Positions 34,207 through 54,424 of a stretch of DNA of 64,000 nt are shown here, in pieces. How positions within the stretch are numbered: the first letter of the stretch is position 1; every line of letters starts with the position of its first letter. This DNA comes from Terriglobales bacterium (GTDB lineage Bacteria > Acidobacteriota > Terriglobia > Terriglobales > Acidobacteriaceae). Below the pieces are notes generated by a model. The model worked only from the letters and a program-made list of their open reading frames with translations, ran no database searches and was not told the origin of the DNA. The stretch spans positions 1-64,000 of the forward strand of contig JAICXB010000005.1 in NCBI GenBank assembly GCA_025980765.1. Direction: 5' to 3'. The translations under genes were made by a program, and so were the position numbers.

Positions 34207-34475
34207 GAGAGTGCCGCACATGCGGCACGATTGAAAATAGCCCAGGACGAAGTCCTGGGTAATCGGAAGAAGCAGAACCACACCGCTCTGCCGAAGGCCT
34301 GCGCTCAGTGAATGCGGAGCGCTCTAGAAAAATGCATTTTGTTTTGTCGCTCCGCGCGTTGCGCTCCGCTCGGGCCTGCGGCAGCGCGGAATGAATTTGT
34401 TCCTTTCAGCACACCCAGGGTTCCTTCGTCACCCTGGGCTACTCTCAGTCGTGCCGCAGAATGCGCGGCACTCTT
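34207..34475. repeat. nested palindromic MITE-like element, copy B
   Basis: Same ends and internal text as 33256..33549 (TAGAAAAATGCATTTTGTTTTGTCGCT, GGTTCCTTCGTCACCCTGGGCTACTCTCAGTCGTGCCGCAGAAT). Confidence 0.85.
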
Positions 34476-51659: not shown

Positions 51660-51685
51660 ATTATAATAGAAATTAAGTCTGTCAA
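51660..51685 (-). promoter_or_regulatory. putative sigma70-like promoter of the 209-aa/PIN operon
   Basis: Minus strand TTGACA (51685..51680) and AT-rich -10 region TATAATATATA (perfect TATAAT at 51665..51660, 14-nt spacer; TAATAT gives 16). Confidence 0.5.
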
Positions 51686-52635
51686 GAGTTAATTCGCTCC
51701 GGCAACTGGATCACAATTGACTGGCTCAGCACCAGCGCAATACCCACAATCTGGAGCGCGACCAGTTTCTCTCCGACAAATGCTGCGGCCAGAACGCTGG
51801 CGAATACCGGCTCAAGGCAACTGGTGACAATCGCGCTGGTTGGATCCAGCAGGCGCAGTCCGCCCAGATACAGTGCGAACGGCAACAGCATCGAGATCAT
51901 TGCGAAGACGAATAGGAAAAGCCACTCGCGTCCGGAGTAGTGCTGAGCAGCGATATGCCATGGCGGATTCACAACAATCCAGAAGATGCTCGCTGCGAGC
52001 AGGGTATAGAAGAGCACCAGCCATCGCGACGACTGCTGCAGCAGTCGCGCTCCGACCACGTTGTAAAAGCCATACGAAAACGCAGCGCCCAAAGCCGCAA
52101 TAATCCCGATTGCATTTACGCGCGCCTGCGACGCCGGCCCGGCGAGCGCTACCATTCCACATCCGACAAACGCGAAAAAGACCGCCATGCCGCGCAGCCA
52201 GGTCGCTCGCTGCTGTCGGGAGACGACCATGTACGCATATACCCACACCGGCGCGGTGTACTGCACAGTAATGGCGATGGCAACGGTGCTCTTCTGAATC
52301 GCGTAGTAGTAGAAGAAATTGGCGCCGCAGACACCGAGAACACCCATGGCAGCGCAGAGCAGCAGGGTCTTTCTGCTGGCAACCAGCTCGCGTCGCCCGC
52401 GAAAACCGAGCAGCAGTGGAATAAGTACCAGCAACGCGAACGTGGAGCGAGTCTGCGAAAGAATGAGCGGATCGATGCCGGCGCCGCGCACCCACTCGCT
52501 GCCGTTGAAGACAGCTTTGCCCCAGGCCGCCGACGCGCCGTAGCAGAACGCCGCGGCGGCGATGAGCAGGTAGCCCTCTAACTTGCGGGCATCAAGATTG
52601 AAGAATTTGTTCGAGTCGTTGTGGATCGAAGCCAA
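51682..52635 (-). CDS. EamA/DMT family transporter
   Basis: Ten TM-like segments; two EamA-like halves; FFYYYAIQKSTVAIAITVQYTAPVWVY. Confidence 0.88.
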   Translation of the reverse strand: MASIHNDSNKFFNLDARKLEGYLLIAAAAFCYGASAAWGKAVFNGSEWVRGAGIDPLILSQTRSTFALLVLIPLLLGFRGRRELVASRKTLLLCAAMGVLGVCGANFFYYYAIQKSTVAIAITVQYTAPVWVYAYMVVSRQQRATWLRGMAVFFAFVGCGMVALAGPASQARVNAIGIIAALGAAFSYGFYNVVGARLLQQSSRWLVLFYTLLAASIFWIVVNPPWHIAAQHYSGREWLFLFVFAMISMLLPFALYLGGLRLLDPTSAIVTSCLEPVFASVLAAAFVGEKLVALQIVGIALVLSQSIVIQLPERINS

Positions 52636-52840
52636 TCATCACCTGGTCGTCAACAACGATAGTGGGAGTCGAGCGGCTATGGTATTTCTCTACCAGTTCC
52701 CGCACGGCGGAATAGTTATTTGAGACATCGCGAATTTCGAATTCAATTCCTCTCTCCGAGAGGAAAGCCTCAGCAACGTGGCACGGCGGTCAGCCCGGCT
52801 GGCTGTACACCACTACCTTCTTTGACTTTCGCGCTTCCAT
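52592..52840 (-). CDS. glutaredoxin-like candidate selenoprotein (in-frame TGA at codon 17)
   Basis: Minus-strand translation MEARKSKKVVVYSQPG[TGA]PPCHVAEAFLSERGIEFEIRDVSNNYSAVRELVEKYHSRSTPTIVVDDQVMIGFDPQRLEQILQS-stop. SD AAGGAG at 52850..52845. TGA at 52792..52790 replaces the first Cys of CPPC; cis-Pro STPTIVV and GFDPQRLEQIL match the glutaredoxin fold. Confidence 0.82.
52747..52765 (-). promoter_or_regulatory. candidate bacterial SECIS stem-loop
   Basis: RNA TTCCTCTC-GGA-GAGAGGAA: 8 perfect base pairs, loop begins with GG, 32 nt between TGA and loop. Confidence 0.6.
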
Positions 52841-52873
52841 GCGACTCCTTAATTTGTTAGATATGCAACCATC

Positions 52874-54304
52874 CTACCGCCGGTTGTCAGTTTGTGGCTC
52901 GGTGTGGATCAATACTTTGAACAGCTCCGGCGCGGCTTGCTTGAAGCGAATCTCCAGCGCCGTAGAAATCTCATGGACGCGCGCCAGGGAAAGATCATCC
53001 GGCAACGTGGTGTGACACGACAGATAGATGTGGTCGCGCACGCGCTTCAGCGCGAGCTCGTGCAGATCGATGATCTCCGGGAACTCTGTCGCGACATTTC
53101 TTAGCTTCTTTTCCAACTCCGCATCGCTCAAGCCGGCATCGCCCGGCTCAATCGTCGCCGAGTCGCTCTCGATGTGGGTAAGGATGGAGCCGATCTCCGG
53201 CACCTCGCTGTGCATCTCGTCTTCCAGCAGAGTCACGAAGTCGTGCGCCTCCTTCAAGGAAAGGCGTTCATCCAGCTCCAGATGTTGTTCCAGATGTAGC
53301 TGCCCATTCAGGTCCTGCACATTTACATCGTGGACACTCAGATTGTGTCGGGCGGCAACGGCGCGCACACGATCGAAAATATTCTCGCTTCCCGCCGCGC
53401 GGGGCATGGCGCTAATAGTGACGTCAGCATCGGGAAGAACGCCGCGAACAGCGCTGGTGACGGACTCCGCCATATGCTCCGAATGCTGCAATGTCGCATT
53501 GCGATTAAGCCCGACTTGCACGTCGGCGAAGTAGCGGTTGCCGGCGCGGCGAATGCGCACTCGCTCCACGTCGAGAATGCCGGGAACGTTTTCGATTGCG
53601 CGAACAATCTGAACGCGCACACCGCTGGGCGCGGCATCGAGCAATGCATCCACCGTTTGTCGCGCCAGCCGCGAGCTGACGTAGATGATTACCCCGGCCA
53701 CTGCAAGAGCAGCAATAGGGTCGGCAACTCGCAACTGAGGAATGTTCCAGTGATGGCCGGCCCACACCAGCGCGAGCCCGACTACCACTACCCCACTGGA
53801 CCAGATATCGGTGGTGAAGTGCAGAGCGTCTGCCTCGAGCGCCTGGCTGTCATAGCGCAGTGCCGTCTTACCCAACGCGCGCGAGCGCCAGAAGTCCACA
53901 AGCATCGAGAGGAAGAGCACAGCGAATGCTGCCAGCGTGGGCTCGATCAGGACATGGTGGAAGAAGAGCCGCCGGACCGCCTCCGTCACAATCCATACAC
54001 AGGTAATAAGCAGCAGGCCGGTTTCGATGAAGGCGGAAAAATTCTCGATTTTTCCGTGGCCGTACTGGTGATCGGAGTCGGCGGGCTTGTCGGAGACCCC
54101 GACTGAGAAGAAGGTGATCACCGCCGCAATCAGGTCGAGCCCGGAATGCGCAGCCTCCGAGATCAACCCCAGGCTGCCGGTGGCGATCCCGACCACGATC
54201 TTGAGTGCGGTGAGCGCAACCGAAGCAAAAACGGAGTTGCGCGCCACCGAGCGCTTTTCACTCCGCATGCTGTCGGTTCGCGAGGAAATATAGGAAGTTG
54301 CCAT
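52874..54304 (-). CDS. cation diffusion facilitator family transporter with extended C-terminus
   Basis: NSVFASVALTALKIVVGIATGSLGLISEAAHSGLDLIAAVITFFSVGVSDKPADSDHQYGHGKIENFSAFIE. Confidence 0.9.
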   Translation of the reverse strand: MATSYISSRTDSMRSEKRSVARNSVFASVALTALKIVVGIATGSLGLISEAAHSGLDLIAAVITFFSVGVSDKPADSDHQYGHGKIENFSAFIETGLLLITCVWIVTEAVRRLFFHHVLIEPTLAAFAVLFLSMLVDFWRSRALGKTALRYDSQALEADALHFTTDIWSSGVVVVGLALVWAGHHWNIPQLRVADPIAALAVAGVIIYVSSRLARQTVDALLDAAPSGVRVQIVRAIENVPGILDVERVRIRRAGNRYFADVQVGLNRNATLQHSEHMAESVTSAVRGVLPDADVTISAMPRAAGSENIFDRVRAVAARHNLSVHDVNVQDLNGQLHLEQHLELDERLSLKEAHDFVTLLEDEMHSEVPEIGSILTHIESDSATIEPGDAGLSDAELEKKLRNVATEFPEIIDLHELALKRVRDHIYLSCHTTLPDDLSLARVHEISTALEIRFKQAAPELFKVLIHTEPQTDNRR

Positions 54305-54424
54305 CGCGGGCTGGTAACCTAATCTTATACGGGATGCGTCCGCCTGCCGAGCCATGTGGCTCCGCCGGCTGTGCTAGCATTTTCCGTCCTTCCCCGCGAA
54401 ATCATTGGAGGCATTTTGAACTTC

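Follow-up and report, generated by a model that had tools for sequence, protein, structure and literature searches.

Selenocysteine (Sec)-containing glutaredoxins of bacteria were described from the Sargasso Sea in 2005 (PMC1088965) and by Zhang et al. in 2006 (PMC1794560), and glutaredoxin (Grx) is listed as a UxxC selenoprotein in a 2026 review (PMC13188914). UxxC glutaredoxins are hence an established bacterial selenoprotein family, and the novelty that the initial annotation of the present locus implied was overstated. Two further groups of small redoxins are of relevance. First, according to PMC3720550, BC3987 possesses a CPPC site and is grouped near the Cp9/YruB redoxins, Cp9 sharing an operon with thioredoxin reductase. 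Second, the clostridial cGrx1 is glutathione-dependent, as summarised in PMC13188914. For Acidobacteria, the 2006 survey counts three selenoprotein families (PMC1794560), among which the gene considered here may already have been sighted; a literature search found no report of such a redoxin in this group.

The window, i.e., the whole stretch of 64,000 nucleotides analysed (contig JAICXB010000005.1 of the Terriglobales assembly GCA_025980765.1), contains the following features in the region of interest:

52592..52840, minus strand: gene for a glutaredoxin-like redoxin that contains Sec, with 82 codons and a stop (PF00462 match, TGA in homologues, predicted thioredoxin fold)
52790..52792, minus strand: TGA at codon 17, predicted to encode selenocysteine as the first residue of UPPC (TGA in 44 UPPC homologues of Acidobacteriota; 17 others have TGC/TGT in this column)
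52845..52850, minus strand: Shine-Dalgarno sequence AAGGAG, 4 nt ahead of the ATG
52747..52765, minus strand: bacterial SECIS hairpin with an 8-bp stem, a GGA loop and 32 nt from UGA to loop (fold energy, compensatory changes, published model)
51682..52635, minus strand: EamA-family transporter gene overlapping the redoxin gene by 44 nt, with its sole usable start (TTG 52635) located within the latter (PF00892, 114 bits; overlap kept in congeners)
52874..54355, minus strand: cation diffusion facilitator (CDF; cation efflux) gene, upstream of the redoxin gene (PF01545, 151 bits, and PF16916; conserved upstream of the Sec redoxin)

The DNA reads as the initial annotation had described it. Minus-strand translation from ATG 52840 covers 82 codons, codon 17 being the TGA at 52792-52790; from there, the frame is open to the terminal TGA (52594-52592), giving MEARKSKKVVVYSQPG-U-PPCHVAEAFLSERGIEFEIRDVSNNYSAVRELVEKYHSRSTPTIVVDDQVMIGFDPQRLEQILQS. 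Codon 17 occupies the place of the first Cys of redoxins (motif UPPC), and the annotated ribosome-binding site AAGGAG was found 4 nt upstream of ATG 52840. Also as annotated, no usable start lies just past the TGA; the first in-frame ATG, GTG or TTG is a GTG at codon 46, making re-initiation beside the TGA unlikely. The gene is absent from the program-made list of open reading frames, as had been remarked, and ordinary gene calling splits or skips such Sec-redoxin genes. Nevertheless, the Pfam glutaredoxin domain PF00462 spans the TGA (57.2 bits versus a cut-off of 22.9). Together with the TGA at the same codon in five congeners and in dozens of genomes, this match indicates that the arrangement is not due to chance. 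It is almost certain that 52840..52592 on the minus strand represents a genuine selenoprotein gene. The proposal that the TGA is read as Sec, rather than being a nonsense codon, is strongly supported by the conservation of the TGA, purifying selection, the SECIS hairpin, and the presence of selB, tRNA-Sec and selD.

Homologues were searched for in 200 genomes, the source genome included. All five congeners (80-83% identity) possessed a TGA aligned with codon 17 and followed by PPC, so that the close relatives carry TGA and not TGC or TGT, and at least 38 of the 199 related genomes, congeners counted in, had a TGA at this codon within UPPC. The best homologues among the 200 genomes had one in-frame TGA each, and TGC or TGT was found at this position in 14 genomes. 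In all, 44 UPPC genes and 17 Cys genes were examined, the latter with Cys in the same alignment column; an in-frame UGA is thus conserved among homologues and replaced by Cys in others. According to a scan of GTDB contigs that have named records, the bearers belong to the Acidobacteriota (Gp1 soil MAGs, Candidatus Angelobacter, Acidobacteriaceae, and Terriglobia), and two Planctomycetota relatives carry Cys at the Sec site. Downstream of the TGA, comparisons between congeners yielded a dN of approximately 0.03-0.11 and a dS of approximately 0.26-1.4, corresponding to a dN/dS of approximately 0.08 (about 0.07-0.1), with differences mostly at third codon positions, indicating purifying selection on the part of the protein past the TGA. 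In the same bacterial class, a more distant second clade of redoxins that encode Sec (L077-L085, e.g. L078:1498-1731, plus strand), with the motifs UMFC, UIFC or ULFC, showed weaker hairpins at the same place and other gene contexts. In one further locus (L071, G090:C716), the redoxin frame ran without a stop far beyond its usual end and across the EamA gene, likely because of a frameshift or an assembly error.

These data bear on three other explanations of the TGA. A nonsense mutation, upon which translation would end at codon 17 and the remainder of the gene decay, could draw on the failure to find selA in the 83.8%-complete assembly (see below), but it is very unlikely given that dozens of genomes have the TGA in common, even where identity falls to 39-60%, that the dN/dS past the TGA is low, and that a covarying hairpin of the right geometry follows; at the level of the clade, conservation rejects it. 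A sequencing or assembly error at an original TGC or TGT might be suspected, since the window stems from a draft metagenome-type assembly of 95 contigs; however, the same TGA occurs in independent assemblies of the five congeners and of many other genera, including complete genomes of single-contig scale, and these independent genomes leave an error with a probability close to nil. Finally, nothing was found in favour of a lineage-wide reassignment of TGA, for instance to Trp or Gly. It is extremely unlikely and was rejected, as TGA terminates the redoxin gene itself and genes of the congeners, the genome contains a dedicated tRNA-Sec and SelB, and the alternative residue at codon 17 is always Cys.

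Past the UGA, the RNA folds as UUCCUCUC-GGA-GAGAGGAA, with a 3-nt loop beginning with GG and an energy of -9.9 to -10.5 kcal/mol. The bacterial SECIS model comprises a loop of 3-9 nt with a G in its first two positions, a stem of 4-16 bp, a spacing of 16-37 nt, and an energy of at most -7.5 kcal/mol (PMC13188914), which the geometry of the hairpin fits (loop of 3 nt, spacing of 32 nt, G first, and a minimum free energy below -7.5 kcal/mol). In a selection of 21 Sec sequences, 97.6% of the core cells were paired, and nine cells contained double changes, with compensatory double changes in three of the six core pairs (C-G to U-A, U-A to G-C, and C-G to A-U). The covariation score of this set was 0.284, versus 0.117 for shuffled alignments and 0.06-0.13 for slid registers. 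At a fixed register, all 44 UPPC genes possessed at least five of the six core pairs and a loop starting with GG; the Cys genes (n = 17) had zero to four of the six core pairs at the same register. As the stem also encodes LSERG, amino acid constraint adds to the conservation on the Sec side. The compensatory changes, together with the absence of the stem from the Cys forms, argue for a function of the RNA. No significant fold z-score was obtained for the 61-nt stretch directly past the TGA, because the short hairpin is diluted over this length. The reading of the TGA as Sec is hence backed by a covarying SECIS hairpin that the initial annotation had not described; the Sec forms possess it, and it has decayed in almost all of the Cys forms.

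Concerning the selenocysteine machinery, the source genome contained selB (376.8 bits, cut-off 242), tRNA-Sec (64.9 bits versus a gathering score of 47; SeC(tca) in ARAGORN), and selD (369.8 bits), i.e., three of the four genes for which a search had been proposed. The fourth one, selA, was not found in the source assembly, with either the family model or the SelA of a congener as query. The selD gene (L050, G000:C90:13166-14089, minus strand) itself contains an in-frame TGA (AAG-U-ASKL), followed by the hairpin GUCCGGC-GGU-GCUGGAC, and is predicted to be a second selenoprotein gene of this genome. Within the genus, tRNA-Sec was above the cut-off in five of the six genomes and selA in all five congeners. 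In addition, selA occurred in all 38 other UPPC-Sec genomes versus 5 of the 14 Cys genomes (Fisher p ~5e-7), this p value being too small, as most of the selA-less Cys genomes form one clade, so that independence is overstated. A selenoprotein lineage in which the source strain has lost selA, leaving the gene silent or its UGA inefficiently read, is quite unlikely. Such a loss would accord with the failure of both selA queries and with the position of pyruvate kinase, which adjoins selA in two congeners but in the source genome occupies the interior of a contig, with no selA next to it. However, this gene order is not found in the other congeners examined, so the position of pyruvate kinase is no test of selA loss. 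Moreover, the genome is 16% incomplete, and selB, tRNA-Sec and the Sec-encoding selD persist intact. Given the 83.8% completeness and the differing selA order between congeners, the gap is not attributable to a contig end either.

On a tree of 70 rows, built from a short protein and having many weak branches, the Cys forms comprised one clade outside the Sec group and five separate tips inside it. In four of the latter five (G034, G082, G086, and the locus L089), the EamA gene is kept downstream as in the Sec forms, so that these look like Sec-to-Cys changes; some orthologues have thus apparently reverted from Sec to Cys. For example, G034 (Cys; L054:1498-1734, minus strand) is sister to the Sec-encoding G098 (support 97/84) and harbours the Cys orthologue in the same gene cluster. 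An 8-bp hairpin with the loop AGGU occurs there at the SECIS position and is an apparent relic of the SECIS after the Sec-to-Cys change. Since bacterial Sec-to-Cys changes are called rare in the recent review (PMC13188914), these cases are useful. The set holds natural Sec/Cys pairs, some of them within one gene cluster.

The gene neighbourhood was conserved, with EamA downstream in 42 of the 44 UPPC loci and the cation-efflux gene upstream in 30 of the 44, some loci being incomplete. Throughout the genus (six genomes), the EamA frame begins directly with a TTG placed 44 nt ahead of the end of the redoxin gene, and no other ATG, GTG or TTG precedes the first membrane segment. Likewise, all candidate EamA starts lay inside the redoxin gene in 30 of the 42 Sec loci, and the same applies to the Cys orthologues of G034 and G082. 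A translational coupling of the redoxin and EamA would be a natural inference from this overlap. As EamA has no start outside the redoxin gene, its synthesis may possibly depend on UGA 17 being read as Sec. That the cluster forms a selenium-responsive operon, in which EamA synthesis may need ribosomes reading UGA 17 as Sec, is a doubtful proposal; if true, redoxin and exporter alike would be governed by the supply of selenium, and the overlapping transporter makes such selenium-dependent coupling directly testable. From the location of the redoxin gene between a cation-efflux gene and EamA, a role in redox upkeep tied to metal or metabolite export might be guessed. Elsewhere in the window (34210-34259, minus strand), an Rfam Acido-Lenti-1 RNA scored just above its gathering score (37.8 versus 37).

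Concerning the protein family, the product has a predicted thioredoxin fold (mean pLDDT 91), in which the cis-Pro landmark noticed initially (T58-P59) is invariant; this fold, with its cis-Pro, together with PF00462 above its gathering cut-off, places the protein among those with a glutaredoxin domain. The best fold match was BC3987 (PDB 3ZIT/3ZIJ, CPPC site), with a TM score of 0.83-0.86 to the query. With Cys replacing Sec, the best NCBIfam family was the YruB/Cp9 redoxin (TIGR02196; 82.9 bits, below the cut-off of 88.55), followed by Uxx-star (NF041212; 53.1 bits, cut-off 66), NrdH (TIGR02194; 46.5 bits, cut-off 85.75), and Grx3-type glutaredoxin (TIGR02181; 43.4 bits, cut-off 90), all of them below cut-off; the neighbours are CDF and EamA genes and not an nrd operon. 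Glutathione synthase (TIGR01380) was not found above cut-off in the six genomes of the genus. The name glutaredoxin, as first assigned, therefore holds for the PF00462 domain but is loose, the nearest relatives being BC3987 and Cp9 (YruB-type).

As to the mechanism, SelB and tRNA-Sec would insert selenocysteine at UGA 17, guided by the hairpin that closely follows it. Through its selenol, Sec17 would then attack disulfide or peroxide-derived substrates, and Cys20 would resolve the mixed selenide-sulfide. The likeness to YruB/BC3987, the operon of Cp9 with thioredoxin reductase, and the lack of TIGR01380 hits in the genus point to a selenol-thiol redoxin, regenerated most likely via a thioredoxin-reductase-type flavoenzyme rather than via glutathione.

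Compared with known systems, the window protein resembles the bacterial Sec-Grx (UxxC) in its PF00462 domain, the replacement of the first CxxC cysteine by Sec, the SECIS right past the UGA, and the existence of Cys homologues. It differs from them by its UPPC motif, its YruB/BC3987-type sequence, its occurrence in Terriglobia-type Acidobacteriota, its CDF-redoxin-EamA cluster, and a doubtful glutathione dependence. BC3987 of Bacillus cereus (3ZIJ/3ZIT) and Cp9/YruB (PMC3720550) are the best matches in both sequence and fold (~40% identity), with CPPC at the place of UPPC, a Ser/Thr four residues ahead of the first redox residue, and the same length class, although they carry Cys instead of Sec and have other neighbours. 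The second-best fold match was the clostridial cGrx1 (PDB 7C10; 34% identity), which differs in phylum and context. This protein is the glutaredoxin of C. oremlandii, which carries Sec in its natural form; a study of 2011 on it is cited in PMC13188914. The Uxx-star families (NF041212, NF041114, and NF041211) likewise consist of small glutaredoxin-like proteins in which Sec occupies this position, and all members of alignment A2 have an NF041212 match (E < 1e-5). In contrast to UXX-star family 1, which is given as UxxT, the window protein retains the second Cys (UxxC). The locus hence belongs to a clade of YruB-type redoxins that encode Sec and are spread over a family of Terriglobia-type Acidobacteriota, which are abundant soil bacteria.
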